A stretch of DNA of 64,000 nucleotides from Geomonas paludis (GTDB taxonomy: Bacteria; Desulfobacterota; Desulfuromonadia; Geobacterales; Geobacteraceae): the NCBI RefSeq assembly GCF_014193585.1, contig NZ_BLXY01000003.1:310001-374000 (forward strand). The letters are read 5' to 3'. Position numbers and translations under genes: made by a program. The notes under the pieces were generated by a model. The model made no database searches and was not told the origin of the DNA. It saw only the letters and a program-made list of their open reading frames with translations. This document shows, one piece after another, positions 10,503 through 30,313 of this stretch (position 1 is the stretch's first letter; every line of letters begins with the position of its first letter).

Positions 10503-11177
10503 TTATTGCATACCTTGGAACATCTGGTCAATGGTCTTGAACCTGAGCCCGCCGGGGACGACCAGGGACCTCATTCCCGCCCGGCGCGCGGCCTCGCCGT
10601 CGCGGTCGTCGCGATCACCGATGACGAGGCACGCCTGCGGCGCCACTTGCCACTGCCGGCAGATATGCAGCAGGCCGGCAGGATCGGGCTTGAGCCGGTC
10701 CACGGCAGGATCCTCGGCCGACCAGGAAGAAAGATGCTCCAGGCGCAGGGCCGCCAGTTTGTCGACGGCGTGATAATCGGAGCAGACGGCAACGTTGATG
10801 CGCCGCTGAGCCAAGGCGGCAAGGAGCACATCGACCAGGGGATAACGGAACCGTCCCAGGTGCCGCAAAGGACGGCGGTAGATCCACTCCTGCACCACAT
10901 CCCGCACCTGGTCGATCTCGCAGTCACAGGCTTGCGCCGTCAGCAGGTAGGATCGACTGGACACGTCGCCCGGTAGCGCGTCGGCCAACGCCTCGCGGAT
11001 GCGGCGGAACCGGAACAGGATGAGCGCCTCTTTGCAGCGCCAGGGGCGCAGCAGCAGGGTTGACGCCAGTTCGAGCGCCATCTGCAGCCGCAACCGTTTC
11101 TGGTCGTAGAGGGTGCCGTCGAGGTCGAGGATGACCCCTTCGACCCCTTCCAGCGCGGCGGGGAGAGGTATTTTCAT
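10503..11177 (-). CDS. HAD-family phosphatase adjacent to UbiA
   Basis: 224 residues. Motif I is GVILDLDGTLYDQKR, with the nucleophile and acid aspartates at D18 and D20. Motif IV is VIGDRDDRDGEAARRAGM. This is a soluble HAD phosphatase with a helical cap. Its ATG overlaps the stop of the UbiA gene by 4 nt. In many proteobacteria an HAD domain is fused to a UbiA-type polyprenyl-phosphate phosphoribosyltransferase. Here the two are separate but coupled. By analogy it would remove the 5-phosphate from polyprenyl-phosphoryl-ribose-5-phosphate or regenerate a precursor. That assignment is inference; other phosphosugars are possible. Confidence 0.8.
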   Translation of the reverse strand: MKIPLPAALEGVEGVILDLDGTLYDQKRLRLQMALELASTLLLRPWRCKEALILFRFRRIREALADALPGDVSSRSYLLTAQACDCEIDQVRDVVQEWIYRRPLRHLGRFRYPLVDVLLAALAQRRINVAVCSDYHAVDKLAALRLEHLSSWSAEDPAVDRLKPDPAGLLHICRQWQVAPQACLVIGDRDDRDGEAARRAGMRSLVVPGGLRFKTIDQMFQGMQ

Positions 11178-12106
11178 ATCGATATCAGGTCGGTCCTCAA
11201 GAAGGTGTGCAGGGCCTCGATCTCGCAGAAGGTGAGCACGAGCAAAAGCGCCACCAGGAAGACGCAGTACGAGAGGAGACCGTACTCCTTGTAGAGGCTT
11301 TCAGGGCGCTGCGCCACCGAGTTTTCCCGCAATCCCAGCTTGAGGTACCAGCAGAAGAGCAACGCGAAAAAGGGGACGCTGATGATGAACTCGATCTTGT
11401 ACTTCACCAGGAAGACGCCCCAGAAAAAGATGGAGACTATGGCGTAGAACAGGATGGAGATCAGGAGTTTCTCCTCGGTGTAGGACTTGAAGGAGAGCCG
11501 GTACAGGGCGGCGCTGTCGCGGTCGCCGATGTAGCGGTACTCCGCCAGCCGCTTGACCGCCATCAGGAAAGCGCCCCCCATCCAGTAGCTGATCAGGATG
11601 CTGGAACTGGGGAGGTAGACGGAGGTGATGGTGGACCATCCCAGCATGAACCTGATGATGTTGTTGACCGATTCGCTCAGCACGTCGAGGTAGGGCTTCT
11701 CCTTGGTGCGCAGGGGCTTCACGTTGTAGACCACCCCCATGAGCAGCAGCCAGACCACGTTGTAGAGAAACATCCTGTTGATCTGCGCGGCAAGCAGCAG
11801 AGATGCCACGCAGAGCAGCGCGTACTCCAGGTAGACCCCGCCGCGGGAGACCCGCCCGGTGACCGAGGGGCGGTCCTTCTTCAGGGGATGGTACTTGTCG
11901 AAGGGGGCGTCGAGCCACTCGTTGATGACGTAATTGGCCGAGGCGGCAAACCCCACCGCGAACAGCGCCATCAGCATGATGACGTGCCACGAGGGGGGCA
12001 TGGGGAGCCCCATCATCAGCGCGATCAGGATTCCGGGCAGGACGAGGATGTTCTTGATCCAGTGGGGAATCCTCGCCAACTCCAGGTACGGTGCGTAAGG
12101 CATCAT
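11174..12106 (-). CDS. UbiA-family polyprenyl-phosphate (phospho)pentosyltransferase-like protein
   Basis: 310 residues from the ATG at 12106; the ATG at 12103 is equally possible, and AGGA precedes both. Longer readings run into the upstream fusion gene and were rejected. RIPHWIKNILVLPG at the N-terminus, the Mg-binding motif NEWLDAPFD (N62, D66, D70) followed by HPLKKDRPSVTG, and DVLSESVNNIIRF form the two active-site regions of the UbiA fold. About nine membrane segments are visible. The pattern R-x-x-x-WxKN plus HPxKxxRP resembles decaprenylphosphoryl-phosphoribose synthase rather than quinone or heme UbiA enzymes. It would make a lipid-linked pentose donor for a GT-C enzyme. It is flanked by an HAD phosphatase and a GT-C/methyltransferase fusion. 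Confidence 0.75.
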   Translation of the reverse strand: MMPYAPYLELARIPHWIKNILVLPGILIALMMGLPMPPSWHVIMLMALFAVGFAASANYVINEWLDAPFDKYHPLKKDRPSVTGRVSRGGVYLEYALLCVASLLLAAQINRMFLYNVVWLLLMGVVYNVKPLRTKEKPYLDVLSESVNNIIRFMLGWSTITSVYLPSSSILISYWMGGAFLMAVKRLAEYRYIGDRDSAALYRLSFKSYTEEKLLISILFYAIVSIFFWGVFLVKYKIEFIISVPFFALLFCWYLKLGLRENSVAQRPESLYKEYGLLSYCVFLVALLLVLTFCEIEALHTFLRTDLISI

Positions 12107-14733
12107 CTTTTCCTGCATACGATCTGCATCGAATCGAAAAGGTTGAGGGGCACGACGGACTTGGCAAAGCGCGCCGGCAGCCGGAAGTTGACGCCGGGGA
12201 CGAAGGTCAGCAGTCGCTCGACGAGGTAGGCGAGCTCGAAGTACCAGGTCGGCCTGCTGACATGGACGATCTCGAAGCCGCAGCGCTGCAGCAAAAGCGA
12301 GATGGTGCGGCTGCTGAAATAGCTCACGTGGGCCAGGCGGAAGTGCCACCACCGCCTCCCCATCACCCGCGCAGCAACGGATTCGATGTCGGGGGTGGTG
12401 AGAAGCAGGTAGCCGCCGGGCTCGATGAGCCCGTGGACCTCGGCCAGCAGTTGCGCAGGATCGGTGACGTGCTCGATGACGTCGACCAGCGTAGCCGCCG
12501 CAAAGGGACCGGATACCCTCGGGTCAGGCAGCACGCCGTTTACCACGGGAAGCCCCATCTGTCGGGCCTGCGCGGACATCCACCGGGACGGCTCGATACC
12601 TTCGGCGTGGTAGCCGCAGGCAAGCGCCTCCTCGACCAGCATGCCGGTGCCGGCTCCCACGTCGAGCAGACGGCCGCTGGGCACGAAGCGGCCCAGGGTG
12701 CCGATCACGTCGCGGAACTGCCTGGTCCTGGCGATCCTGCCGGATTCGTATTCCGGGTCCTCCATGGCGCGATAGTACTCCAGCACGTCGCTGCTGCTCC
12801 CCTGGTAGAAACCGCACCCGGCGCAGCGCTCTATGGCGTAGGTGGTGCCGTAACTGCTGTCGGTCACCTTGAAGTGGTCGGCGCTGACCGCTTCGGGAAG
12901 GACATCACCATCCTTCCAGGTGCTGAAGCAGGTGCCGCCGCATACGCGGCAGACGCCGGAGTGGGAAACGGGCAACTCCAGGCGATGGCGGCCGCGCGAC
13001 AACAGCCAGAAGAAGACTCCATAGAGCAGGGAGATGGCGGCGGCCAACGGCAGGGAAACCCGACCGCCGAACAGTTCTTTCACCCGCTCCGACACCGGGG
13101 GGCGCCAGCTGTTGAACTTTGCCGCGGCAACCCGGGCCGCGACGGCCTTGGCGTCACCAGCGTTGGCGATCCGGACCAGGCTCGCGCTGCCCAGACGCGC
13201 GTTGTACTCGTAAAACCAGAGGTTCCCGTAGTTGGACTCCCAGTAGTCGAGCGCCACGCCGTCGGCGCGCACCTTGAACCGGGGCAGGCTCGACGGGTTC
13301 ACCGGCATGGCGCTCACGTTGATCGTTTTATCGGCAAACCAGAGTGCGGCACTGAAGTCCCAGGAGTCCTGAAAAACCACCTCCCCGTTGAGGTTGTCGG
13401 GCACATGCCACGGGACATGCCCGAGCAGGGTGGCGTGCTGCATGGGCACCCTGGCCGCCACCAGCTTGGAGGCCGCGGACGCGGCTATCTCGCGCTGCAG
13501 GGACCAGGAGACCGCGTACCGTTCGCGTTGCACCATGAAGCAGCAGAGGTTCAGGAAGATGAGCAAAAAGACCAGCACGGCCAACGGGAGGTCCCAGAAC
13601 AGGTCGGCGGTCACGGCAACCAGCAGTGCCAGGACGATCCAGGTCGAGGTCATGCCCCGGTTGGGGTACCCCGCCACCTGGGCGCCGGAACCGGACAGGA
13701 TGTACAGGAAGGAGGCCAGGAACAGGGCAAGGAGGATGATCCCCAGCAAATGGATCTTTTTTTCCCGCTGCGACGCGGTCCCTGCAGAGGTGGAGGTGTT
13801 GGCCCGCCCGACACCGTACAGCAGGACGGCGAACAAAAGGGCCAACAATAACGCGGCGCCCTTCAGGCTGGGGTCGCCGCTACGGAACTCGAACACGGTC
13901 TGCACGGAGTTGAGCAACAGCAGCGGGAGGTCCACCAGCAGGGCCCAGCACCACGTGAGGAAGTTGTGCAGGCAGTTGCTCAGCGGGCCCGGGGAAAACC
14001 TGGAGTACACCGTCATGAAGGCAGGCATGACCACCTTCTGAAGCAGCAGGATCAGGGTCACCACGCCGCCCATCGGCGCCAGGTAGAGCGCAAGGTGGCG
14101 CTTCACGGTCGTCCGGGACCAGGCCGGTTGAAAGAGGGCCGGGTAGAGAACGTTAAGGGCCAGGAGCGGCAGGGTGATCTCGTAGGTCAACAGGCTCAAC
14201 AGAACCAGGAAGTACGACCCGGCCAGGTAGAGCCGCCCCTTGCCGGCGAGGTGCCGGTCGAGCAGCAGGAAGGAGAGGCTCCAGAAGAAGATGCTGGCAA
14301 CGCCCACCAGTTGCGTGGCGATGGAAAAGATGACCGTGGACGCGATGGACGGAAAACTCGCCAGCGCGAGAAAGACCACCACGAAGCGCAGCGAGAGGAA
14401 CCTTTTCAGGACGTTGGCCAGGATGACCAGGCTGGAGAGCCAGAACGCGAGGCCGACCAGGATGTACCCCCTCGGGTCCGCCAGGGAGACCTTGGCGACC
14501 AGCGACAGCACCAGCGGGGCCACGGGACGGTTGGAGAACAGGGGGAACCAGGAACGGTACAGGTCCCAGAAGTCGGCAAAACCGAAGGCACTGCGCACCA
14601 CGCTCCAGTCATCGGATACGAACCCGCTGTTCACCAGGTGCGGGGTGAACACCAGCACCCAGGACAACAGCAGGGCACCCCAGGCCCAGGTGGTGCCGGA
14701 GAGCGTGATGCGGTTTTGTTTCAGGTTCTGCAT
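12103..14733 (-). CDS. Fusion: GT-C membrane glycosyltransferase + SAM methyltransferase
   Basis: 876 residues in one uninterrupted frame. Residues 1-400 carry about eleven hydrophobic segments. NSGFVSDDWSVVR places the acidic pair D41-D42 after the first segment, as in GT-C enzymes. Residues 400-560 are a predicted outward soluble domain, and a last membrane segment follows at about 560-580. From residue 590 a cytoplasmic module begins with a zinc-ribbon-like Cys set (C595, C598, C637, C640). Then come motif I LLDVGAGTGMLVEEAL and TLVDVIEHVTDP of a class I methyltransferase. The first half could transfer a lipid-linked sugar outside the membrane while the second methylates inside. The start has GAGGG upstream. 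The neighbouring UbiA gene could make its donor. Confidence 0.8.
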   Translation of the reverse strand: MQNLKQNRITLSGTTWAWGALLLSWVLVFTPHLVNSGFVSDDWSVVRSAFGFADFWDLYRSWFPLFSNRPVAPLVLSLVAKVSLADPRGYILVGLAFWLSSLVILANVLKRFLSLRFVVVFLALASFPSIASTVIFSIATQLVGVASIFFWSLSFLLLDRHLAGKGRLYLAGSYFLVLLSLLTYEITLPLLALNVLYPALFQPAWSRTTVKRHLALYLAPMGGVVTLILLLQKVVMPAFMTVYSRFSPGPLSNCLHNFLTWCWALLVDLPLLLLNSVQTVFEFRSGDPSLKGAALLLALLFAVLLYGVGRANTSTSAGTASQREKKIHLLGIILLALFLASFLYILSGSGAQVAGYPNRGMTSTWIVLALLVAVTADLFWDLPLAVLVFLLIFLNLCCFMVQRERYAVSWSLQREIAASAASKLVAARVPMQHATLLGHVPWHVPDNLNGEVVFQDSWDFSAALWFADKTINVSAMPVNPSSLPRFKVRADGVALDYWESNYGNLWFYEYNARLGSASLVRIANAGDAKAVAARVAAAKFNSWRPPVSERVKELFGGRVSLPLAAAISLLYGVFFWLLSRGRHRLELPVSHSGVCRVCGGTCFSTWKDGDVLPEAVSADHFKVTDSSYGTTYAIERCAGCGFYQGSSSDVLEYYRAMEDPEYESGRIARTRQFRDVIGTLGRFVPSGRLLDVGAGTGMLVEEALACGYHAEGIEPSRWMSAQARQMGLPVVNGVLPDPRVSGPFAAATLVDVIEHVTDPAQLLAEVHGLIEPGGYLLLTTPDIESVAARVMGRRWWHFRLAHVSYFSSRTISLLLQRCGFEIVHVSRPTWYFELAYLVERLLTFVPGVNFRLPARFAKSVVPLNLFDSMQIVCRKR

Positions 14734-15575: not shown

Positions 15576-16219
15576 GCCGCCCACCCTTTGTCCAACTGCC
15601 CGGCAAAGGCGGCCATCCAGACAGTGTGAATAGCCAGCTCGGATGTGCCGGAATCGACCAGGAAATGTTCCAGGAAAGCGGAGGCCCGGGCGACAACCTG
15701 GTCGCGGGAGAAGGATGCAGCGTCCCTGCGGGCGACGACCTCCAGGTTGTAGGTCCCTCCCCAGGCGCTTTTGGTGATCTTATCCACGGTGAAACCGAAT
15801 TCCCCGAGCATCGTCTGCAGCAGGCTGGCGGTGTACCCCTCGCAGTGCACAGCCCACGGGGCCTCGTGCGAGCCGAAAAGGTGGCGCTCGGCGATGGCGC
15901 GCTGCTTAAGGGAGTTGAACGGGTTCATGAGCGCCAGGGCCGTCCGGCGGAAATCGGGGACCTCGATGGTGAGGATGCCGCCGGGCTCAAGCCACGAGTA
16001 CCAGCAGGCGAGGAGCCCGCAGGCGACCGGCCGGGGGAAGTGCTCGAAGACATGATGCAGCCGGACCTCCGCCACGCTGCCGGCGGGATACCTGAGCGTG
16101 GTGATGTCGGCATGAAGGTCGGCCACACTGCTGGTCTGGGCCGTGTGGCAGGAGAGCGGGAAATCTATGTTCAGGTACCCGTCGAGGTACCTCTGGCCGC
16201 AGCCGAGGTGCAGCTTCAC
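15572..16219 (-). CDS. Class I SAM-dependent methyltransferase
   Basis: 215 residues. The short N-terminal motif KLHLGCGQRYLDGYLNIDF is typical of a methyltransferase family found in surface-polysaccharide loci, where the sequence opens directly with motif I. HHVFEHFPRP and LEPGGILTIEVPDF follow as motifs IV and VI. The start is GTG at 16219, overlapping the stop of the upstream GT2 as GTGA. It is cytoplasmic and sits between two GT2 genes. It probably methylates a sugar hydroxyl, but no acceptor can be named. Confidence 0.8.
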   Translation of the reverse strand: MKLHLGCGQRYLDGYLNIDFPLSCHTAQTSSVADLHADITTLRYPAGSVAEVRLHHVFEHFPRPVACGLLACWYSWLEPGGILTIEVPDFRRTALALMNPFNSLKQRAIAERHLFGSHEAPWAVHCEGYTASLLQTMLGEFGFTVDKITKSAWGGTYNLEVVARRDAASFSRDQVVARASAFLEHFLVDSGTSELAIHTVWMAAFAGQLDKGWAA

Positions 16220-17052
16220 GAGCGACCTCCAAACCAGGCGCGGGGAAATTTACGCACCGTGCGCGCCGGGTCCCGATATTCCCGCACCAGCCAATCCTGC
16301 TGCGGGACTCCCAACGATCCCCACGTCTGGACATAGCGCTCCCAATCGCCCTTCTGCACGGCGGCGTTGCTGTCTCGCACGCTGACGTTGGCGTGGGCGT
16401 GGTGCTCGACGTAGGAGTCGGGCGCATCGATGCAGGGATACCCGGCTTGCCACATCCTGAGGCAGAGATCGCCGTCGGCATGGTAGAAGAGGTAGTTCTC
16501 CTCGTCGGCGTACCCCACCGCCTCCAGCGCTTCCTTGAGGTAGAGGCCGTGGTTCACGAACATCCTCCCCCCGAAGGTGAGGCCGACCCGGTAGCGCTCC
16601 TCGTGCGGCCAGTCCCGCCAGTAGAAGGCAGCTGCCCCGATCCTCTCCCCCGCGGCACGCCTCTCATCGCACAACGTGACGCCATTGAGGATCGCCCCAG
16701 GCACCGCGAGGCAGTCGTCGCTCAGCATGCAGACGTACTCGCCCTGGGCGACCTTGAAGGCGAGGTTCATGAAGTAGCCCCAGGAGCGGCGCTCTATCGC
16801 CCTACCCTGCCACTCCCCGCGGTTATGCTGAACGATGGTCAGGATGTCTTTTTGCTTCAGGAGCCAGGCGAGGGAGCCGTCGGTCGAACCGCCGTCCACC
16901 ACGATGATCTCGGAGCGGAACGGGCAGCGCGCCAGTTCCTCGCGGATGCTGGCTACGGTGCCCTTGAGAAAACGCGCGCGGTTGTAGGAGCCGAGCACCA
17001 CCGAAACCTTCACGGCCGCAGCCGGCATGGGTCTTTGAGTCGCAGCGATCAT
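16216..17052 (-). CDS. Glycosyltransferase family 2
   Basis: 278 residues from the ATG at 17052, which overlaps the stop of the 1240-residue multidomain gene by 4 nt. A longer reading to 17679 only covers that gene out of frame. KVSVVLGSYNRARFLKGTV, VVDGGSTDGSLAWL and VCMLSDDCLAVPG give the GT-A signature and acidic motif. YHADGDLCLRMWQAGY is the catalytic region, and EHHAHAN follows. It probably acts after the multidomain enzyme, being translationally coupled to it. Sugar unknown. Confidence 0.87.
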   Translation of the reverse strand: MIAATQRPMPAAAVKVSVVLGSYNRARFLKGTVASIREELARCPFRSEIIVVDGGSTDGSLAWLLKQKDILTIVQHNRGEWQGRAIERRSWGYFMNLAFKVAQGEYVCMLSDDCLAVPGAILNGVTLCDERRAAGERIGAAAFYWRDWPHEERYRVGLTFGGRMFVNHGLYLKEALEAVGYADEENYLFYHADGDLCLRMWQAGYPCIDAPDSYVEHHAHANVSVRDSNAAVQKGDWERYVQTWGSLGVPQQDWLVREYRDPARTVRKFPRAWFGGRS

Positions 17053-20000
17053 GGCATTTGCTCCTGCCGCCAACGTTTGAGATAGGCGAGTCCCCGGCGG
17101 ACGGCCACAACCGCCCCCCCCTCCTGCTTCCGTCGGCTCCAGAGCTCCGGCAGGTATCGCGACGGCGGGATGCTTGCCTCGAGCCCCCAGCGGGTCAAAA
17201 GCTCCGACAGTTCCGCAGGGCCTGCGGGGGGCAGTCCGGCAGGGGGAGCAACGGCGCCATGCGCTTGGGGCTCCTGGACAAACTCCGACCGCGTCCCGTC
17301 CTGTTCCACGAGGGTCACCGCGACAGCCAGATCCAGTCCACGCAGCGCGGCCAGATCCCACCTGGGCATCCCCTCCCCGGCGGGCCAGCAGGACGAGCCC
17401 TGCGCGACGATGCGGGGATGGGGGCCAGCGGGCGCAAGCGACAGTTCCATGGCGACGGCAATGGTGCGGCTCCCCACGCCGCCGATACAGTGGTGGCGGG
17501 GATACCTGCATTTCCAGTTGCAGCCGAAACACTCCAGCGGCAGGACCGCGGCGGTGGTGGTGGCAGCGTAGGGCATGAAGCGGCCGAAGTGTCCGCCGCC
17601 GAGCAGCACCACGTGCGGCGTCCCCACCGCGGCCGCGGCGTGAGCGAGCCCGCTTTCCGCACCGACGGCCAGCGCGCACCGGGCGATCAGGGCGCAGGCC
17701 TGGCGGATGGTGGTCTTGCCGGAGAGGTCGACGAGGCGCACCGGGGCGTCCGGGGTATTGCTGCCGATAATGGCGCTGTCGGTGACGCCTCCCAGCGCCA
17801 GCACGGCAAAGCCGTGCCTGGTGCAGAACTCCTGCAGCGCCGCCCGGTACTCGAGCCCCTCGCGGTAGCTGTGCTGCGCCCCCGGGAAAAAGGCCACCGT
17901 CCGGGCCGGATCGAGCTGATGCTCATGCAACAGCCGCTCGGCGACATCGCGGTCTTCCGGGGTGAGCCAGACCGCCGGCTCGAGGTGATCGGATGCGATC
18001 CCCAGTGCAGACAGCAGCATAGGATGGGAGGCCGACTCGCGTCCCCCGGCTTCCTCCGCAATCTGGACCAGTTTCGTGTAGTGACGGTTGTTCTGGCGCA
18101 GGGTCTCCGCCGGCAGGTTGCAGTCGTTGCCGGAGAAGGCGACGCGCTCCCTGGCCCCGCTCCCCAGTGCGAAACAGTCGGTAAGCGCCTCGCGCGACAA
18201 CACCGGCGTCACGCACAGGTCGGCCTGCAGCTCGCGCAGCAGCGCGACGATGGTGTTGCGGTAGCGGGCGTCATCGTAGGCGCGGCGGCGCTCGAAGGTG
18301 ATCACCTCGTCGACGAACGGGCAGGCATCGTAGAGTTCCGCCACGTGTTCCTGGCAGAGCACCGTGATCCAGGCGGCGGGGTCGGCGGCAGCGATTCTAG
18401 CCAGCGCGGGAAGCGAGATGATGCTGTCGCCGATGGCGTCGGTCCTGATCCAGAGCAGCCGCCTCGGGCGCGCGCCGGACCCGGCCGGGACGAAGCGCGC
18501 GATGCAGAAACCGAATTTCTCCGGCGCGGCGACCGCCATGGTGAAACGGGGGTCCTTCTGCATCTGCCGGAAGCTCCTGGCGTGCTTGACGTGGTTGATG
18601 TCGTCGAGGGCGATGTAGCAGGGGGCGTACAGGCGCTCGACCAGGTAGTTGAACTCGATGTTGCCCATGTGGCCGCCGCTGTCCAGGAGCACGAAATCCG
18701 GGGCCCCGTCCAGAAGCGCCAGGCAGTGGTCGAGCCTGGCCTCCTCGATACCGGCGAAGTCGGTCTCGGCGAGATAGCGCTGAGTGCGCACGGCGGCGTC
18801 GTGGTCGACGTAGCCCGCCTTGCCGTTCAGGTTGTAGACCAGCTTTTCCCGTATCACGTCCCGGGAAGGGAGCAGCCTTCCCGGCACCGACAGGCCGTGC
18901 ACCAGCTGCACCCGCGCCGCCAGCCCGGCCTGCGCCAGGTTTTCGCCGGCGATGCGATGGTTTTCCGGATTGCACTCGATGGAGTAGAAACGGGCGTCGT
19001 CCAGCCCCAGGTCGCGCAGGCAGGAGGCGATGATGCGCGTGGTCCCCTCGCCGTGGAAGGTGCCGGTCTCGATGATGCGCGTCGGGCGCGCCTTTTCGAA
19101 AACCGCACGGATGCTTTCGGCAAAGGAGGAGTGCGTGTCGATGCTGGTGAGGGTCGTTTCCTGCGCCTGCTGCTCCTCGCCCGCCACCCGGACCGAGCGC
19201 GCGGCGAGCCTTAAGCCCCGCCCCAGGAGCTCCTCCACCGAGCCCCCCTTGAGGAAGATGGCGCAGCCGTCGCCCTGGGTCGAGTTAAGCAGCAGCTTGA
19301 AGTGCTGGTACCTCAGCATGAAGCGATGGCAAAGGGAGTACAGCTCGCGGTGCCCGGGGTGGTTGATGCCGTCGAAGACGATGGCGCCCCGGTCGGCGAC
19401 CAGCGCCGCGGCCGATGCCAGGTCGTTCCAGACGTCCTCGCGGGGCCGTCCGCCGGAGATGGAGATGAGGTCGAAGGACTCCCCTTGGGAGACCAGCCGC
19501 TCCATGATGCTGCGGCCGCTGCCGCGCCTGTGGCGCACGCGCGCGTCGCACCCGGCGCCGCGCCGGTAGTCGGCGAGGAGCTTGCGGACGTCGCGGGACA
19601 GCGAGGGGTCGACGCCTAAGAGGTAGCTTGGCGACGCGTTGTGCAGGACCTGGATCATGCTGCCGCTGTTGCCGGAGCCGACCTCCAGGTAGCGCTCGGG
19701 ACGGAGCATGGCCGCCAGGAAAGCGAGCGCGATCTGCCGGTCCCAGTAGGGCTCGCCTTCTCTGCCGTTGCCGCCACTGTCGAGGCCGTAGCGCTCGCGC
19801 GCCCCCCCGGCCAGGTACACCTGCTCCAGGGCCCTCAGGGCCATCTTGCGGAAGACCGGCGCGCCGATGACCCGCGCCGCCTCGGCCTCGGAAACCGCGG
19901 CAGGACCGGGGTCACCGCCCCGGTAGCGGGCCACCAGTTCCGCCACGGCGGGAGGATGCTCGCCGGTGAAGGGAACGGTGCGGGAGTCGGGATCGCCGGT

Positions 20001-20771
20001 CCAGACCGGGTAGCGGCTCTCCAGCTCCGCCCGCCGTTCCGGGCGCCACTGCAGGAAGAAGTCGCGATACCAGGCGTCGAGATCGAGCTCCCACTGTTTG
20101 CCCCAACCGTAGCGATGGTAGAGTTCCACCTTCTGGTAGACCTGGCTCCAGAGCACGTAGCTGTAATGGTAGGGGTAGACGTTGAGCGCCCTGGTTTCCG
20201 GCGCGCTCAGCACCCTCCCCTCCTGGACCGCCATGGTGGGGGGGCGGTGGGTGGTGAAACGCGCGCCGGGGTAGTTGCGGAAGACGCGGCGGCAGTGGAA
20301 CTCGCTCTCGGCGAACTTGTCCGAGTCGAAGATGTAGTCGAACCCCTTCCAGAAGTTGTCCAGGGTGACGTCGACCCGGGCGATGCCGGGGTCCCGGGCC
20401 AGCACGGCGCGCAGGCGCTCGATGTCCTCTTCCTTGTACACCTCGTCCGCATCGACCAGCCAGATGTAATCGCCGGTGGTGAACTGCAGGGCGTGGTTCT
20501 GCATCTCCAGCTTTTCGGCCCATTTCCCCTGGATGAGCCGGATCTTGCCCTGCGGGTCGGGGAAACTCCTGATCGCCTCCACCGTGCCGTCGCAGGAGCT
20601 CCCGTCGGGGTTGGCCGCGAACATGCAGTTTTCCACCGCCCCTTCGATGATGACGATGTCGTGCGCGGAGCGGTAGACGCTTTTCAGCACGCACTCGAGA
20701 AACGGCATGCCGTTCAACACGATCATCACGAAACTCAGGGTGGGCTGCGGTTGCGGGGACATCTCGGTCAT
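17049..20771 (-). CDS. Four-module protein: GT2 - methyltransferase-like - methyltransferase-like - GT9
   Basis: 1240 residues from the ATG at 20771 (AAGGA five bases upstream). Residues 11-240 are a WaaE-like GT2 domain: TLSFVMIVLNGMPFLECVLK, and IWLVDADEVYKEEDI with the acidic motif. Residues 345-510 hold a Rossmann module with YLEVGSGNSGSM and IVFDGINHPGH. Residues 545-760 hold a second with RIIETGTFHGEGTTRI, FVLLDSGGHMGN and IALDDINHVKH. Residues 770-1130 are a GT9 domain: LLWIRTDAIGDSIISLPALA, AVGAESGLAHAAAAVG, GGGHFGRFMPY and a Cys block ECFGCNWKC. A 110-residue tail follows. The frame is continuous and modules are of normal size, so this looks like a genuine fusion and not a sequencing artefact. 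It may add, methylate and extend one unit without release; that is inference. Confidence 0.85.
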   Translation of the reverse strand: MTEMSPQPQPTLSFVMIVLNGMPFLECVLKSVYRSAHDIVIIEGAVENCMFAANPDGSSCDGTVEAIRSFPDPQGKIRLIQGKWAEKLEMQNHALQFTTGDYIWLVDADEVYKEEDIERLRAVLARDPGIARVDVTLDNFWKGFDYIFDSDKFAESEFHCRRVFRNYPGARFTTHRPPTMAVQEGRVLSAPETRALNVYPYHYSYVLWSQVYQKVELYHRYGWGKQWELDLDAWYRDFFLQWRPERRAELESRYPVWTGDPDSRTVPFTGEHPPAVAELVARYRGGDPGPAAVSEAEAARVIGAPVFRKMALRALEQVYLAGGARERYGLDSGGNGREGEPYWDRQIALAFLAAMLRPERYLEVGSGNSGSMIQVLHNASPSYLLGVDPSLSRDVRKLLADYRRGAGCDARVRHRRGSGRSIMERLVSQGESFDLISISGGRPREDVWNDLASAAALVADRGAIVFDGINHPGHRELYSLCHRFMLRYQHFKLLLNSTQGDGCAIFLKGGSVEELLGRGLRLAARSVRVAGEEQQAQETTLTSIDTHSSFAESIRAVFEKARPTRIIETGTFHGEGTTRIIASCLRDLGLDDARFYSIECNPENHRIAGENLAQAGLAARVQLVHGLSVPGRLLPSRDVIREKLVYNLNGKAGYVDHDAAVRTQRYLAETDFAGIEEARLDHCLALLDGAPDFVLLDSGGHMGNIEFNYLVERLYAPCYIALDDINHVKHARSFRQMQKDPRFTMAVAAPEKFGFCIARFVPAGSGARPRRLLWIRTDAIGDSIISLPALARIAAADPAAWITVLCQEHVAELYDACPFVDEVITFERRRAYDDARYRNTIVALLRELQADLCVTPVLSREALTDCFALGSGARERVAFSGNDCNLPAETLRQNNRHYTKLVQIAEEAGGRESASHPMLLSALGIASDHLEPAVWLTPEDRDVAERLLHEHQLDPARTVAFFPGAQHSYREGLEYRAALQEFCTRHGFAVLALGGVTDSAIIGSNTPDAPVRLVDLSGKTTIRQACALIARCALAVGAESGLAHAAAAVGTPHVVLLGGGHFGRFMPYAATTTAAVLPLECFGCNWKCRYPRHHCIGGVGSRTIAVAMELSLAPAGPHPRIVAQGSSCWPAGEGMPRWDLAALRGLDLAVAVTLVEQDGTRSEFVQEPQAHGAVAPPAGLPPAGPAELSELLTRWGLEASIPPSRYLPELWSRRKQEGGAVVAVRRGLAYLKRWRQEQMP

Positions 20772-20808: not shown

Positions 20809-21723
20809 TCAGCGGCGCAAGGCAGCGGCGACTCCGAACACAAAGTAGCGCAGGTCGTCGCGCAGGTTGAAGACGCCGCACCTGGCGTTGTTGAACAGGT
20901 AGTTGGAGAAGGTCCCTGCGAATTTGCCGACCTTTTTCTCGTCCTTGTAAAGTTCCATCAATTCCCGGTAGCTCCACTGGATCTCGGGGAGCAGGACGGC
21001 CCGGTAACGGGTGCCGAACCGGTGCAGCAGTGCCTGCCTGGTCAAAAGCGTGTTCAGCTTCTGGTAGGCCTCCGGCTTGTAGGACCAGATCCCGCCGGCG
21101 TGGGATCGGTAGGCGGCGGTATGCCGGTCGATGAAAGCGGCGTCGCCGTACTCCGTCAGCACGCTGAACAGCAGCGAGTCGCCGTTGACGCAGCGGTAAA
21201 ACGAGCGCGGGAAGCTGCGCACCAAGCCGTTTCTGAAGACCACGGTATTGGTGGGGGGGACCAGGCCGTTGATGATGTCCGCCTGGGACAGGTTGCGGCT
21301 GCGATCCGCCTCCAGCCGGCTGGGTCTGATGGTGGCGCCCTCCTCGTCGACCACCAGGCTGTTGGTGAAACAGATCACAAACTGGTGATTGCGGCGCAGG
21401 AAATCGACCTGCTCCTGTAGCTTCTCCGGACAGGTCCAGTAATCGTCCCCCTCCAACATGGCGACGAACTGGCCGCGGCAGGCGGCGAAGACGCGCAGCA
21501 GGTTGCGCACCGGCCCCAAGTTCTTTTCCGGCGGCAGCAGCCTGATCAGGTCGGGGAACCTCCGCTGGTACAGCTCGAGGATGCTCCTGGTGCCGTCGGT
21601 GGAGCAGTCGTCCCCGATCACGATCTCGTAGGGGAAATCCACCTGCTGCATCAGGATGCTGTCCAAGGCCTGGGCGACGTACCGCTCCTGGTTGTAGGTG
21701 ATCATAAGGACGCTGAGGGTCAT
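20809..21723 (-). CDS. Glycosyltransferase family 2
   Basis: 304 residues from the ATG at 21723 (AGGGA upstream); the upstream extension overlaps the DegT gene and was rejected. LSVLMITYNQERYVAQALDS, VIGDDCSTDGTRSILELYQR and AMLEGDDYWTCPEKLQEQV give the GT-A fold and metal motif. CVNGDSLLFSVL marks the acceptor side. Enzymes of this type are common in O-antigen and capsule loci. It lies 4 bp after the aminotransferase gene and 37 bp before the 1240-residue gene. It may transfer the amino sugar made by the DegT enzyme, which is inference from adjacency. Confidence 0.87.
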   Translation of the reverse strand: MTLSVLMITYNQERYVAQALDSILMQQVDFPYEIVIGDDCSTDGTRSILELYQRRFPDLIRLLPPEKNLGPVRNLLRVFAACRGQFVAMLEGDDYWTCPEKLQEQVDFLRRNHQFVICFTNSLVVDEEGATIRPSRLEADRSRNLSQADIINGLVPPTNTVVFRNGLVRSFPRSFYRCVNGDSLLFSVLTEYGDAAFIDRHTAAYRSHAGGIWSYKPEAYQKLNTLLTRQALLHRFGTRYRAVLLPEIQWSYRELMELYKDEKKVGKFAGTFSNYLFNNARCGVFNLRDDLRYFVFGVAAALRR

Positions 21724-21727
21724 CAGG

Positions 21728-22954
21728 TCATCCCTGCAGTTCCTGCCGATGCGCGATGGCGGGCGCATTGGCGACGGCAAATGCGATGATGCGGCAGATC
21801 CGGTCAATCTCGGCACCCCCCACGGCAGTGCCCGTCGGCAGCAGCAAGACCCGCTGGGAAAGCCGCTCCGTCTCGGGCAGCAGCAGCCCCGCATGCGGGA
21901 AGTAGGAGCGGTAGGGCTCCATCCGGTGGCACCCCGGGTAGAAGTAGCGGCGTGCAATGACGTTCTCGGCATGCAGGACCTTCAACAGTGCGTCGCGCCC
22001 AAGACCCGCAGCAACCTCATCGATCTCGCAGACGATGTACTGGTAGTTGCACTTCTCTTCCCGGTACGGCAGCAACGTCACTCCGGGGATCCCGCGCAGC
22101 CCGTCCTGGTAACTGCGGTAATTGTCCATGTTGGCAGCGATGAACTGTTCGAGACTTTCCAGCCCGGTCAGTCCCATGGCGGCAGAAAACTCGTTCATTT
22201 TGCCGTTGGTGCCAATGTAGATGACGTTGTCGTAACCGGCGAAGCCGAAGTTCTTCATCAGGCGGATCTTGGCGGCCAGCTCGTCGTCGTCGGTGGTGAC
22301 CGCACCCCCCTCGAGGGTGTTGAAGAACTTGGTGGCGTGGAAGCTGAACACCTCGGCGTTGCCGAAGCCGCCGATCATGCGCCCCTTGTGGGAACAGCCG
22401 AAGGCATGGGCCGCGTCGAACATGAGCTTCAGGTCGTGGCGCCGCGCGATGTCGGTCAGCGCCTCCACGTCACAGGGCCTACCCCAGAGGTGGACGCCGA
22501 TGATGCCGCTGGAGCGCGGGGTGATCATCCGCTCCACCTGGGCCGGGTCGATGTGGTGCGTGGCCGGATCGATGTCGCAGAAAACCGGGGTGATCTCCTG
22601 CCATTGCAGCGAGTGCGCGGTCGCGACAAAAGTGAAGGAGGGGACGATGACCTCCCCCTGTAGGCCGAGCGCACGGATGGTGATCTCGAGGGCGATGGTG
22701 GCGTTGCACATGGCGATCACGTGCTTCACCCCGAGCAGCTCGGCAAGCTTCTGTTCGAACTCCTGCACGTAGCGCCCATTGTTGGTCAGCCAGCGCCGGT
22801 CGAGAATGTCGCCGATGCGCGCCATCAGCTGGTCGCGGTCCCCTATATTGGGGCGGCCGACGTGGAGCTGGTCGCTGAAGGCGGGTTGGCCGCCGAACAG
22901 CGCCAGTTCCTGGATTTCAGGTGTCTGCTTAATGGGCATGTGCAGCGTCCTCAT
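21728..22954 (-). CDS. DegT/DnrJ/EryC1/StrS-family sugar aminotransferase
   Basis: 408 residues. RRWLTNNGRYVQEFEQKLAE opens the domain, MFDAAHAFG has the PLP-contacting aspartate D180, and FHATKFFNTLEGGAV has the Schiff-base lysine K209. These PLP enzymes make 3- or 4-amino sugars from nucleotide-linked keto sugars. The start is ATG at 22954, overlapping the methyltransferase stop by 4 nt. No nucleotide-sugar dehydratase is in the window, so the keto-sugar substrate comes from elsewhere. The neighbouring ATP-grasp-HAD and methyltransferase genes suggest the amino group or sugar may be further modified. The exact sugar is unknown. Confidence 0.88.
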   Translation of the reverse strand: MRTLHMPIKQTPEIQELALFGGQPAFSDQLHVGRPNIGDRDQLMARIGDILDRRWLTNNGRYVQEFEQKLAELLGVKHVIAMCNATIALEITIRALGLQGEVIVPSFTFVATAHSLQWQEITPVFCDIDPATHHIDPAQVERMITPRSSGIIGVHLWGRPCDVEALTDIARRHDLKLMFDAAHAFGCSHKGRMIGGFGNAEVFSFHATKFFNTLEGGAVTTDDDELAAKIRLMKNFGFAGYDNVIYIGTNGKMNEFSAAMGLTGLESLEQFIAANMDNYRSYQDGLRGIPGVTLLPYREEKCNYQYIVCEIDEVAAGLGRDALLKVLHAENVIARRYFYPGCHRMEPYRSYFPHAGLLLPETERLSQRVLLLPTGTAVGGAEIDRICRIIAFAVANAPAIAHRQELQG

Positions 22955-23495: not shown

Positions 23496-24782
23496 CTATA
23501 TCCTCTCGTCCATGAGCAGTTCCAGCATGCTGCAGTCGAAGGTGCTGATACCGAGCCGGTCGCTCACCGCCTTTCTCTCGCTGAAGCTGTCGTCGATAAA
23601 GATGGCGTCGGGCTCGGTAATGTAGCGCGCCTTGGTGTCGTCCTTGCCCACGTGAACCACGGCATCGAACAGGTGCGCCAGGCGGAACCTGGCCAGTGTC
23701 GCGTCCAGGTCGCCGGCGTGCCTGGTGAGCAGCACGATCTTCTTGCCCTGGTTCAGGCATTGGTACAAAAAGGCAGCCAGTTGGACATTGACCTTGCCGT
23801 GCAGGATCAAGGTGTCGTCCAGATCGACGTAGACGGTGCCGAAGTTTATCTGGTGGCGGTAACGGTTGACCAGGGCCCGGTCCACGCTCACCACACCCCG
23901 GTTCACCAGCAGCGAGAGCGGAAAGCGCTCCTGCTCGTAGATGCTCAGCAGCGGGAAATTGACCCCCTGGACCCGGTGCAGCGCCATGGTCCCGGCGATG
24001 CGCGGCGCCACCTCGAGCAGCTTCAGGACGCCGTGCCGGTCGCGCTTCACCTGGAAGAACCAGGCGCCGTGAAAGGCGAGCCTCTCGGCGATGCGGGCGG
24101 CGTAGTCGGCGAAGGTCTCCTGCGCAGGGGCAACCTCACTGCTCATGGAGATGCCGCTCTTGGTGCGCACCCTTTGCCTGGCGCCGCAGAAGAGGAGCCC
24201 GGCGTCGCGGTCGGAGAAGCAGTCCACGGTGTACTCTTCGCCGGGAAGGTACTCAAGGGCGATCCGCTCCGGATCCGCCTGCAAAAGCGCTAGCAACTGC
24301 GACTCACAATGCACCAGGTGCGTGTCGCGGGATCCCTCGCCCCGGTCCGGCTTGACGAACACGGGATAGCTGGAGACGTCGGCCGCGCAGCGGAAACGTT
24401 CCGGCACCGGCACTACTCCGTCCAGGACGCGGTAGGTCTCGGACTTGGAGCGGGTCACGGTGCAGGTCTCCAAAGGCGAAGAGACGATGCCGGCCTTGAT
24501 CGCCCCGGCGTGCTGCGCCAGGGCCACGATGACGTCATCGAAGGCAGGGAAGATGTAATCGATCGACTCCGCCTCGACCACCCGGTTCAGCGCCTCGATC
24601 CAGCCCGGCTCGTGGATGCTCGGCAGCACGAAATGGCGGGCGAAGACGAAGGGGGCGTGGTTGGAGACGTCGGAGCCGGCGGAGAAGAGCCGGACCTCCT
24701 TGCAGGGCGCGAGCGCCTTCTGGATCTCGAGCCCGATCTCGGTCCCCCCCGGGAATACCAGGATGTGGAACGGTTTCTTCAA
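23496..24782 (-). CDS. Fusion: ATP-grasp ligase + HAD-like phosphatase
   Basis: 428 residues. Residues 1-100 form a Rossmann-like pre-ATP-grasp part (ILVFPGGTEIGLEIQ). Residues 100-280 are an ATP-grasp domain with YPVFVKPDRGEGSRDTHLV, ALEYLPGEEYTVDCF and LKLLEVAPRIAG, where E257 would help bind Mg-ATP. Residues 315-428 are an HAD-like module with TVYVDLDDTLILHG (D320, D322) and AIFIDDSFSERKAV. The start is TTG at 24782 with GAGG eight bases upstream; the nearby ATG is out of frame. ATP-grasp enzymes join a carboxylate to an amine through an acyl phosphate. Next to a sugar aminotransferase it could attach an amino acid or small acid to an amino sugar. Substrates are inferred only. Confidence 0.8.
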   Translation of the reverse strand: MKKPFHILVFPGGTEIGLEIQKALAPCKEVRLFSAGSDVSNHAPFVFARHFVLPSIHEPGWIEALNRVVEAESIDYIFPAFDDVIVALAQHAGAIKAGIVSSPLETCTVTRSKSETYRVLDGVVPVPERFRCAADVSSYPVFVKPDRGEGSRDTHLVHCESQLLALLQADPERIALEYLPGEEYTVDCFSDRDAGLLFCGARQRVRTKSGISMSSEVAPAQETFADYAARIAERLAFHGAWFFQVKRDRHGVLKLLEVAPRIAGTMALHRVQGVNFPLLSIYEQERFPLSLLVNRGVVSVDRALVNRYRHQINFGTVYVDLDDTLILHGKVNVQLAAFLYQCLNQGKKIVLLTRHAGDLDATLARFRLAHLFDAVVHVGKDDTKARYITEPDAIFIDDSFSERKAVSDRLGISTFDCSMLELLMDERI

Positions 24783-24821: not shown

Positions 24822-26102
24822 TCAAAGCTGCCTATCTCCGGGCGCGGCGGTTTCAATCTCCCAGGCAAGGTCCGGGCGGACCACCCCGGCCCACTTGCCG
24901 AACCAGGCGCCGTCCCGTTCCACGTCGCTCACCTCGAACACCAGGGCGTCCTTTGCCTCGAACAGCGGCAGCGACTTGTCCCTGACCACCATAATCTTCA
25001 CCCGGTACACCTCGGCGTTGAGAAGGTTGGCCGGGATGTGGCAGACCCCCTTGACCCGCGAGCGCTGCGCGATGAAGGAGCGCGACGCGGAATTGAAGAC
25101 GCAGGTGCCGTCAAGTGAGTAAAGGTGCATGCTGTAGTTCAACTCCACGCCGGGGAGGTCGTTCTCCAGCGTGAATTCGACGGCGAGCGGCGTGGCGACG
25201 GTGGCATGCCCGGTCTGGCCGCAGTCGAGCCGTGCCGAGCACAGCCGCACCTGCCCGTTGCCCGGAGCCGACGCAGGGTCGTCCCAGCTCTGTTCCAGGA
25301 CCATCTGCGAGGTCCTTTGCAGGTAGCGGGCAACAACGGCGCCGCTGTCGCCGTCGTCCACCACCCTGCCCTGGTCCAGCCAGATGGAGCGGTCGCACAG
25401 CGACTGCAGCGCGATCATATTGTGGCTCACGAAGAGCACGGTCCGCCCCTGCCGGCCCACCTCCTCCATCTTGCCCAGGCACTTTTTCTGGAACTGGGTG
25501 TCCCCCACCGCCAGCACCTCGTCCACGATCAGGATTTCCGGCTCCAGGTGCGCCGCCACCGCGAAGGCGAGACGCACGTACATCCCGGAGGAGTAGCGCT
25601 TCACCGGCGTGTCCAGGAACTTCTCCACCTCGGAAAAGGCGACGATCTCGTCAAACTTGCGCCGGATCTCCTGCCGGTTCATGCCGAGGATGGCGCCGTT
25701 CAGGAAGATGTTCTCCCGCCCGGTCAGCTCCGGGTGGAAACCGGTGCCGACCTCGAGCAGGCTCGCCACCCGTCCCTTGATGCGCACGCTGCCGCTGGTA
25801 GGCTCGGTGATCCGGGACAGGATCTTGAGCAGCGTCGATTTGCCGGCGCCGTTCTTGCCGATGATGCCAACCCTCTCCCCCTCGCGGATCCCGATGGAGA
25901 CGTCGTCGAGCGCCCAGAACTCCTCCCGGGCAGGCGCCGAGGCCGGGACGGGGCGCAGCATGAGCCTTGCGCCGACATTGGCGATGCTGCGGGAGAGCGC
26001 GTCGCGCAGCGAGGAGCGGTCCTCGGGGGCGCCGCGGGTGATGCTGTAGCGCTTGCCGAGCCCCTTGATGTCGATGACGGTGCAGGTAGAGGCGCTGTTC
26101 AT
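24822..26102 (-). CDS. wzt: Polysaccharide ABC exporter ATPase with C-terminal carbohydrate-binding domain (Wzt)
   Basis: 426 residues from the ATG at 26102, which overlaps the Wzm stop by 4 nt. Walker A is GIIGKNGAGKST (residues 79-90), the signature region is RYSSGMYVRLAFAVAAHL, Walker B is ILIVDEVLAVGDTQF, and the switch His is in LFVSHNM. These match the O-antigen/teichoic-acid exporter subfamily. Residues 270-426 form an extra beta-rich domain (Wzt_C) that in O-antigen exporters recognises the finished, end-modified chain. That fits the methyltransferases in this locus, since methyl caps commonly serve as the export signal. With Wzm it moves undecaprenyl-linked glycan across the inner membrane. 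Confidence 0.92.
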   Translation of the reverse strand: MNSASTCTVIDIKGLGKRYSITRGAPEDRSSLRDALSRSIANVGARLMLRPVPASAPAREEFWALDDVSIGIREGERVGIIGKNGAGKSTLLKILSRITEPTSGSVRIKGRVASLLEVGTGFHPELTGRENIFLNGAILGMNRQEIRRKFDEIVAFSEVEKFLDTPVKRYSSGMYVRLAFAVAAHLEPEILIVDEVLAVGDTQFQKKCLGKMEEVGRQGRTVLFVSHNMIALQSLCDRSIWLDQGRVVDDGDSGAVVARYLQRTSQMVLEQSWDDPASAPGNGQVRLCSARLDCGQTGHATVATPLAVEFTLENDLPGVELNYSMHLYSLDGTCVFNSASRSFIAQRSRVKGVCHIPANLLNAEVYRVKIMVVRDKSLPLFEAKDALVFEVSDVERDGAWFGKWAGVVRPDLAWEIETAAPGDRQL

Positions 26103-26932
26103 ATCACGTCCGCCAGTACGCGCTCGGTTTTGCGGAAGTACCACAGCCCCGACAGCAGCAGGGCCGCCGAAAGCGCAGTGGAAACCAGCAGTCCCGGCCA
26201 GTAGATCTCGGTTTTCCCCGTCAGGAGCGCCCAGCGGAAGCCATCGATCACCCCCACCATCGGATTGAACGAGTAGATAAGGCGCCACTTTTCCGGCACC
26301 ATGCTGCTGGCGAAACCGACCGGGGAGACGTAGAGGCCGAACTGGAGCAGGAACGGCACCAGGAACCTGAAGTCGCGGTAGCGTACGTTGAGCGCGGCGC
26401 ACCACAGGGCGCACCCCGCCACCGCCAGCATGGCCAGGGCCAGGAACAGCGGCAGGGTCACGATGCGCCACCCCGGGAGATAGCCGTACCAGAGCATCAT
26501 CCCGGCCATGATCGCCATGGAGATGGCGAAGTCGATCAGGCTCACCACCAGGGTGCTGGCGGGGATGATGATCCGGGGGAAGTAGATCTTGGTCAGGAGG
26601 TTCGCGTTGCCGATCAGCGAGTTGGACCCTTCGCTGAGAGCATTGGCGAAGAAGTTCCAGGGAAGCATGGCGGCAAAGACCAAGAGCGGGTACGGCGTCC
26701 CGTCGGAGGGGAGCTTGGCGAGCAGTCCGAAAACGAGGGTGAAGGCGAGCATGGTCAAAAGCGGGCGCAACACGCTCCAGGAGACGCCGACCACGGTCTG
26801 CTTGTAGCGCACCAGGATGTCGCGCCATACCAGGAAGTAGAAGAGCTCGCGATAGCGCCAGGCATCGCGCCAGTAGTGGAGCGCGGGGCGGTTGGGCTCG
26901 ATGAGCAGTTCGTGCGGCACGGTCTCTTCCAT
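26099..26932 (-). CDS. wzm: Polysaccharide ABC exporter permease (Wzm)
   Basis: 277 residues, ABC-2 type. The cytoplasmic N-terminus YRELFYFLVWRDILVRYKQT is the gate/amphipathic helix region typical of Wzm/TagG. About six membrane segments follow, with FPRIIIPASTLVVSLIDF and SPVGFASSMVPEKWRLIYSF as conserved loops. Length is normal. It is directly coupled to wzt and lies 5 bp after the GT2 gene stop region on the far side. It forms the membrane channel for the finished glycan. Presence of this pair means the polymer is exported by the ABC route and not by Wzx/Wzy. Confidence 0.92.
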   Translation of the reverse strand: MEETVPHELLIEPNRPALHYWRDAWRYRELFYFLVWRDILVRYKQTVVGVSWSVLRPLLTMLAFTLVFGLLAKLPSDGTPYPLLVFAAMLPWNFFANALSEGSNSLIGNANLLTKIYFPRIIIPASTLVVSLIDFAISMAIMAGMMLWYGYLPGWRIVTLPLFLALAMLAVAGCALWCAALNVRYRDFRFLVPFLLQFGLYVSPVGFASSMVPEKWRLIYSFNPMVGVIDGFRWALLTGKTEIYWPGLLVSTALSAALLLSGLWYFRKTERVLADVI

Positions 26933-29291: not shown

Positions 29292-30313
29292 GGCTTCACC
29301 GCGCCGCAGTTGCCCGCGCTCAGCATGAGCCGCGCGATCATGATGCCCCGGTCCCACTTGCCGCACAAAAAGCGCAGCATAAGTTCCGCCCCCAGCACCA
29401 GGTACACGGTCGGGAGCGTGACCGGGTGGTGGCGCCGGGCAAAGAGGATCCGGTTGCGGATGTTGTAGAAATCGCAGACCGTGCTCTTTTTGGCCGGGTT
29501 GCTGCTGGTGCCGATACTCTGGCCGACCTTGTGGTAGACCACGCTCCCCGGTGCGTACCCCAGGGTGAAGCGCCCCCGGGCCCGCTCGGCCCAGTCCGCC
29601 TCCTCGAAAAAGAGGAAGTAATCCTCGCAGAGCAGGCCGACCTCGAGCAGGAACCGGCGCGAGACCAGCATGGAGGCCCCCTCGACGTAGTTCATGCGCG
29701 CCTCGGCGCGCCCCCCCGCTGCGGAGCCACCGCGGGTGAAACGGCCATGGTGCCAGGGAAGCCCGATCCAGCGGCAGTAATAGCCGCCGCCCAGGGCCTG
29801 GACCCGGTCACGGTCCTGGTAGTAGCGGATGGTCGAGCCGCACATGCCGATGCCGGGATCCGCCTCCATCCTGGCGCAGAGTTGACTGAGGGCGTCGGGT
29901 TCCACCACGGTGTCGTTGTTCAGGAGCCAGCAAAAAGAGGCGCCGCGCGCCAGGGCGTAGCGCAGGCCGACATTGTTGCCGCCGGCAAAGCCCAGGTTGG
30001 CGCCGGTATGGATCAGCGTGACCTTCGGGGACTGGCTCCGCCAGGCGCCTGTACCCCTTTCGTTGCAGGTGCCCGTCCCACCTTCCTGGTAGCCATCGCC
30101 GCCCCCCTCGGCGGCCTGGCGATCGTATTCCGCGAAGGTCACCTGCCGGGAAGCCGCCCACTCCCGGATCCGCGCCGCGGAGTCGTCACCGGAGGCGTTG
30201 TCGCAGACCGCGATATCGAAATCCGGGTAATCGAGACCAAGCAGACTGTCCAGGCATTCCAGCGTGTCCCGCCACCCGTTCCAGTTGACCAGGATGACAC
30301 TGACCCGGCTCAC
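29288..30313 (-). CDS. Glycosyltransferase family 2, rhamnosyltransferase-like, with in-frame repeat insertion
   Basis: 341 residues from a GTG overlapping the UbiA stop as GTGA. VSVILVNWNGWRDTLECLDS, NLGFAGGNNVGLRYAL and CWLLNNDTVVEPDAL define the WbbL/RfbF-like GT2 group. YFLFFEEADWAERAR is the catalytic part. Between residues about 68 and 97 there is a glycine-rich stretch (GGDGYQEGGTGTCNERGTG) that interrupts the loop before the NLGFAGGN motif. Its DNA contains a palindromic repeat also found between genes at 47356. The insertion keeps frame, and all catalytic motifs survive, so the enzyme is probably active. Confidence 0.87.
   Translation of the reverse strand: MSRVSVILVNWNGWRDTLECLDSLLGLDYPDFDIAVCDNASGDDSAARIREWAASRQVTFAEYDRQAAEGGGDGYQEGGTGTCNERGTGAWRSQSPKVTLIHTGANLGFAGGNNVGLRYALARGASFCWLLNNDTVVEPDALSQLCARMEADPGIGMCGSTIRYYQDRDRVQALGGGYYCRWIGLPWHHGRFTRGGSAAGGRAEARMNYVEGASMLVSRRFLLEVGLLCEDYFLFFEEADWAERARGRFTLGYAPGSVVYHKVGQSIGTSSNPAKKSTVCDFYNIRNRILFARRHHPVTLPTVYLVLGAELMLRFLCGKWDRGIMIARLMLSAGNCGAVKP
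30027..30057. repeat. REP-like palindrome inside a coding region
   Basis: The core reads GGGGACTGGCTCCGCCAGG and continues GCGCCTGTACCCC. It matches the intergenic copy at 47356-47385 except for two small differences. The ends GGGGAC and GTCCCC form a stem, and an inner TGGC/GCCA stem is nested within it. Downstream similarity (a TTT-x-CGTTG stretch) extends the match to about 30085. It lies in frame within the GT2 gene. Confidence 0.8.

Follow-up and report, generated by a model that had tools for sequence, protein, structure and literature searches.

A protein of 1240 residues, encoded on the minus strand of the analysed window (a stretch of 64,000 nucleotides of a Geomonas paludis contig), joins a GT2 glycosyltransferase, two different SAM-type folds and a GT9 glycosyltransferase in a single polypeptide. 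We read this mosaic as a module-shuffled glycan-assembly enzyme of flagellin-island stock that would now serve an ABC-exported polysaccharide, a reading to which we give a probability of about 0.55 and under which its activity, its substrates, the order of its steps and the direction of its transfer are what we infer. What the analysis establishes is the anatomy of the protein, its predicted folds, its relatives, the loci in which these lie and the residues lost from M2. The positions of its modules (M1 to M4) and of neighbouring genes are given in Table 1.

Table 1. Modules of the mosaic protein and genes of its neighbourhood (positions in the window)
Feature	Residues	Position	Strand	Remark
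GT2 gene downstream		16216..17052	(-)	ATG overlaps the mosaic stop by 4 bases
Four-module mosaic protein	1240 aa	17049..20771	(-)	one frame
C-terminal tail	1126-1240 (115 residues)	17049..17396	(-)	
M4, GT9, GT-B fold	764-1125	17397..18482	(-)	subfamily fused to methyltransferase modules
M3, COMT-like SAM fold	538-760	18492..19160	(-)	
M2, Methyltransf_24-type SAM fold	300-532	19176..19874	(-)	fold predicted
M1, GT2 glycosyltransferase, GT-A fold	1-285	19917..20771	(-)	DxD present (VDAD)
GT2 gene upstream		20809..21720	(-)	same strand as the mosaic, gap 37 bases
DegT/DnrJ/EryC1/StrS-family sugar aminotransferase		21728..22954	(-)	
Wzt-like ABC ATPase		24822..26105	(-)	
Wzm-like ABC-2 membrane protein		26099..26932	(-)	

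Four modules in a single frame

The reading frame runs from an ATG at 20771 to a stop at 17049 with no internal stop, and encodes in order the GT2 module (M1), a Methyltransf_24-type module (M2), a second SAM fold (M3), the GT9 module (M4) and a tail. A preliminary description of this DNA had proposed four modules in one polypeptide, two of them SAM-type and different from one another. Both proposals held: a GT2, two SAM folds and a GT9 were found in one frame, M2 being of the Methyltransf_24 type and M3 COMT-like, both with predicted class-I methyltransferase folds. Mean pLDDT of the predicted models was 87.7 for M3 and M4 together and 75.5 for M1 and M2 together. The tail gave no significant match among the 13 relatives' loci compared.

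Module M1 shares 51-58% identity with the other six sequences in its alignment. When its model was compared with solved structures (Foldseek), the first glycosyltransferase, at rank 29, was the peptide S-glycosyltransferase SunS, which is its best solved relative; since the NCBIfam matches included no WaaE model either, the 'WaaE-like' label originally attached to this module was dropped.

The two SAM-type modules

M2 passes the Pfam model Methyltransf_24 (PF13578) with 59 bits against a cut-off of 26.3, counted over the full protein and best at residues 362-467, and its model matches class-I methyltransferases. However, the acidic DGDH/FDD signature of its nearest Methyltransf_24 relatives is missing: VDGDH is replaced by ISGGR near residues 438-442 and FDD by FDG near 466-468, and the loop after VD is shortened, whereas VDGDH or IDGDH, FDD and the full loop are kept in all four close M2 relatives (L006, L010, L011 and L071; the Methyltransf_24 module of L009, 13% identical, and two from phages, all without DGDH, were left out of this count as too distant). 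Because of these replacements and the shortened loop, M2 is probably a catalytically inactive methyltransferase fold, and at most three active steps are therefore likely in the mosaic. The 'assembly line' suggested by the preliminary description stays plausible in outline, but its M2 stage lacks residues that the close relatives keep. That M2 might instead be active by a metal-free mechanism, the two SAM modules methylating different positions, would agree with its predicted fold and with its retained SAM-binding region (EVGSGNSGS, VD); it is made very unlikely by the loss of precisely those acids and of the full loop. A close kinship between M2 and a phage Methyltransf_24 gene was also considered and rejected, the identity being just 14-15%.

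The predicted model of M3 also matches class-I methyltransferases. Conserved in this module are ETGT, ExN, LLDSxGH, LDDxxHxKH and EKFG; 37 positions are invariant across 18 sequences, the window's included, among them acids at two strand ends, at the places that we take to be those of the Mg ligands of COMT. M3 would accordingly act as a Mg-type O-methyltransferase, its use of the metal being suggested by the positions of these motifs. It has the fold and motif positions of COMT and related O-methyltransferases, and differs from them in that three additional helices are inserted between strands 3 and 4 of its predicted structure and that no curated model of its own was found. Among the 18 members, no NCBIfam match was better than 4.2e-4, and Pfam at 0.01 or better recovered Methyltransf_24 in 9/18, Methyltransf_3 in two and CmcI in one. 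From these scattered matches M3 is placed, on sequence grounds, in the wide Methyltransf_24/COMT superfamily, without its own model in the libraries searched. In PHROGs, of three M3 proteins only that of the window was matched, and weakly (0.0053).

The branch leading to the window's M3 is long (1.14, versus a median of 0.38 for end branches), which could reflect relaxed constraint. Together with the lost acids of M2, this long branch might indicate a decaying or only partly active mosaic, with a dead M2 and drift in the remainder. We consider such decay decidedly unlikely, since all 1240 codons are open with a coding-type third-position GC of 0.88, the DxD of M1, the motifs of M3 and the GD motif of the GT9 are all retained, and the gene keeps its 4-base overlap with the downstream gene.

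A GT9 clade tied to methyltransferases

M4 passes Glyco_transf_9 (PF01075) with 52.8 bits (cut-off 22), its predicted model matches the GT-B fold of GT9 enzymes, and it stays below the NCBIfam equivalog cut-offs for LPS heptosyltransferases I (51.2 against 185.3 bits), II (59.9 against 134.6) and III (49.6 against 170.2). The donors of GT9 enzymes are often ADP-heptoses, and the genome of the window carries an ADP-heptose synthesis gene; a heptose-like donor for M4 is a guess made at the level of the fold.

A profile of M4, built mostly from fused members, separated two groups when matches in the order were counted down to an E value of 1e-50. All 15 matches above 440 bits were in fused frames of 678-2163 aa, and all 13 matches below 331 bits were in frames of at most 437 aa, the ordinary size of a GT9. 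Adding L006, L007, L008, L009 and L071 to the 15 from the order gave 20 fused proteins (L011 was excluded, its M4 being a separate gene; contig ends truncate L007, L009 and L083). The module directly N-terminal of M4 was M3 in 12 of them, Methyltransf_23 in six and an M1-like GT2 in two, so that a methyltransferase directly precedes M4 in 18/20. Both exceptions have a methyltransferase-type match further up: in L083 a Methyltransf_24 cut by the contig end, and in L103 a stretch that resembles M3 weakly, at 1e-9 to its profile, and is not matched by Pfam. The fusion seen in L006-L009 was partly selected for, because these loci were found by their likeness to the whole window protein. This M4 clade differs from the GT9 heptosyltransferases WaaF, WaaC and that of Veillonella (3tov) in its fusion to methyltransferases, a combination of which no description was found among the literature matches listed from a limited library.

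M4 also carries a four-Cys motif, C-x2-C-x3-C-x6-C. In TibC, one of the BAHT autotransporter heptosyltransferases, the iron-finger cysteines are 339, 342, 358 and 370 (PMC4358343). A link between the two was rejected, since the spacing differs; it is further undercut by the finding of the four-Cys pattern in 6/9 frames outside the fused subfamily (14 loci compared, four without a frame; the tenth frame, L018, is the fused copy of genome G001 and was excluded). The window encodes, at 3066-4247, another GT9 that stands alone, has the ordinary size and carries a similar four-Cys motif.

Relatives: shuffled modules, often close to flagellin genes

Judged by its relatives' sequences, the mosaic is not a lone oddity, and its modules turn up in other proteins in shuffled arrangements. 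Seven loci came out of a scan of genome contigs, and six of these had more than the GT9. Among 141 genomes of the order, seven had nine M3 copies between them, each within an open frame of 1023-2163 residues. M3 occurred in one of 395 evenly drawn genomes of the phylum, the window's own, and in four of 395 genomes of the phylum to which an Ignavibacteria locus belongs, one of these four being that known locus itself and another a weak match in a 253-residue frame. The relatives reach 4710 residues and add TPR, GT4-type, GT11, FkbM or B12-radical-SAM modules. The preliminary description knew of no standard family with this order of modules; that stands for the curated libraries consulted, but L006, L010 and L071 have M1-M2-M3-M4 in the same order, with extra modules. 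On an Omnitrophota contig (L011), three neighbouring genes that overlap encode M1, M2 with Methyltransf_23, and M4, respectively; M3 was not found in that genome.

PF00669, a model that covers flagellin and also the hook-associated FlgL, was mapped in 21 genomes, 18 of which carry a fused M4. A match lay within 25 kb of the mosaic in 12/18, at distances of 165 to 24578 bases; the chance expectation is 0.74 (P 2e-13, assuming even gene placement). The 25-kb limit was chosen after the distances were known, the farthest being 24.6 kb; within 15 kb the count is 11/18. The matches beside the mosaics of G488, G458, G459, G043, G601 and G003 were flagellin-like by eye, a reading that covered these six of the twelve (the others being G001, G011, G045, G490, G527 and G529). 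As a control, none of 11 other GT9 matches in G003, G011, G001, G043 and G045 (for G003, G043 and G045, among the matches listed) lay within 25 kb of PF00669. Six of the 18 genomes had no PF00669 match on the contig of the mosaic. Five of these contigs are of 3.8-30.5 kb and little informative; on the window's own contig (C3, 475 kb) the absence is true, the four matches of this genome being on contigs C1, C2 and C8. The proximity in 12/18 genomes points to flagellin glycosylation, and the relatives at flagellin genes most likely elongate and O-methylate flagellin sugars.

Flagellar and polysaccharide loci in the same genus

The mosaic gene of the window lies in a conserved polysaccharide locus of the Wzm/Wzt kind, within its variable part. 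The ATPase part of the Wzt-like protein is 70-85% identical to that in the corresponding loci of G011 and of G003, a member of the same genus, while its C-terminal part had no match there; the Wzm-like protein is 62-65% identical. The framework of the locus is common to all three genomes up to and including this ATPase part, and the polysaccharide loci of G003 and G011 showed neither M3 nor a fused M4. Among the 12 genomes mapped, only that of the window had an ABC2_membrane match close to the mosaic. A Wzt_C domain (PF14524) in the Wzt-like protein was looked for and rejected: the model missed this protein and matched elsewhere in the genome at two places, at one of them below its cut-off.

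Other genes of the locus include two for UbiA-type prenyltransferases (window 11174-12109 and 30310-31152), the first adjoined by a HAD hydrolase gene, and one for an ATP-grasp protein (PF15632, with a PylC-like N part; window 23496-24782). Window 12103-14733 encodes a protein of 876 residues that begins with a long stretch judged hydrophobic by eye and has a Methyltransf_23 module at its C-terminus.

In G003, the mosaic gene is flagellar and shares 4 bases with the gene encoding a 1298-aa protein. The genome of the window has the same flagellar island, including putative FlgK and FlgL (94% and 92% identical, and named by size, place and sequence) and a counterpart of the 1298-aa protein (79% identical) that matches GmaR (2.7e-20), TPR and other glycosyltransferase structures. 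The slot of the mosaic is taken there by a 693-residue protein that has in common with the G003 mosaic only its C-terminal GT2 part (76%), which matches GT2 structures. The 34 kb of this island that were read showed no convincing sign of M1, of M3 or of a fused M4. The module set thus occupies two kinds of locus within one genus, flagellar in G003 and polysaccharide in the window. It would have moved from the flagellar to the polysaccharide locus rather than the reverse, with few well-supported forks in the trees limiting how far they speak to the direction of transfer.

In the same island of the window genome (L124:720-8042), the interval from the FlgL-like gene to flagellin codes for two large proteins, of 990 and 1448 residues. 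They are 81-84% identical in G003 and ∼40% identical to each other.

Despite the place of its gene, the window mosaic might glycosylate and methylate flagellin in trans. The frequent neighbourhood of fused proteins and flagellin matches would suit such a role, as would the flagellar island of this genome, which has a GmaR-like glycosyltransferase and lacks M1-M3-M4, so that their function could have moved out. This is nevertheless unlikely, since the gene lies among glycosyltransferase genes of the same strand, overlaps the next of them and is ∼4 kb from Wzt; moreover, the flagellar slot has kept its GT2, and the island may therefore be complete without the mosaic.

Phage copies of M3

Thirteen viral loci gave an M3 match, eight of them near full length (L052-L059; five distinct by sequence) and the others incomplete or weak. 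L052 carries M3 as a gene by itself, grouped with B12-radical-SAM, M1-like, methyltransferase (one Methyltransf_24) and GT4-type genes; this group adjoins head-tail genes, and in L058 a tail-fibre gene is close to M3. At 0.01, Pfam did not match the M1-like gene of L052; its likeness to M1-type modules (26-28% to that of the window) suggests a GT2. A B12-radical-SAM and an M1-like gene accompany the phage M3 in L052, L055 and L057. Against the fused protein of L035, where the same order precedes M3, identity is 48-50% for the phage B12-radical-SAM parts and 51-54% for the M1-like ones, the latter reaching 56% in L034 and L036. Tentatively, M3, the M1-like GT2 and the B12-radical-SAM may form a mobile glycan kit passing between phages, flagellin islands and O-polysaccharide loci. 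In phages the kit would consist of separate or partly fused genes close to those for head-tail or tail-fibre proteins. In bacteria it would be joined to a dedicated GT9, and its place, flagellar or polysaccharide, would differ between related species of the same genus. We consider this wider picture possible, with the odds somewhat against it.

Proposed function and comparison with known systems

Returning to the mosaic as an enzyme of polysaccharide assembly, its core would be M3, with its O-methyltransferase fold, directly followed by the GT9, with the GT2 of M1 at the N-terminus. M1 would add a sugar, M3 would O-methylate that sugar or the acceptor, and M4 would add a further sugar, M2 probably being kept as a spacer or an acceptor-binding part. 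By analogy with WsaE, the net result would most likely be two sugars and one O-methyl group placed on the polysaccharide in the cytoplasm, before export by Wzm/Wzt. The fused proteins make up a defined family, open to testing, that ties a single GT9 clade to methyltransferases. They link the glycan systems of flagellin and of exported polysaccharides, which are usually studied apart, and point to an O-methyltransferase family shared with phages that has no curated model. If active, the modules would be a natural set for building methylated glycans.

Glycosyltransferase-methyltransferase fusions are known both for ABC-exported glycans and in flagellin islands, and the class is therefore familiar. 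WsaE of the Geobacillus stearothermophilus S-layer glycan has a methyltransferase and two glycosyltransferase domains, and is encoded in a Wzm/Wzt cluster with overlapping genes (PMC2943079). The window mosaic is likewise one multifunctional methyltransferase/glycosyltransferase protein sited in a Wzm/Wzt locus, the two being likened by domain content and locus. WsaE differs in having one methyltransferase, N-terminal to both glycosyltransferases, against the order GT2-methyltransferase-methyltransferase-GT9 of the window protein, whose relatives are mostly at flagellin genes. Klebsiella pneumoniae O7 ORF6 and the WbdD-type terminators similarly carry methyltransferase modules (O7 also a glycosyltransferase) in one protein of an ABC-dependent O-polysaccharide pathway (PMC11231755); those proteins also carry a coiled-coil molecular ruler and a kinase, neither of which is among the Pfam matches of the window protein. 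Finally, enterobacterial flagellin glycosylation islands contain GT41-methyltransferase and GT2-methyltransferase fusions (PMC4875605), and so resemble the relatives of the mosaic in having such fusions at flagellin loci. The proteins described here differ from them in the GT9 core with M3, in the phyla concerned and in the location of the window copy, outside the flagellar island.
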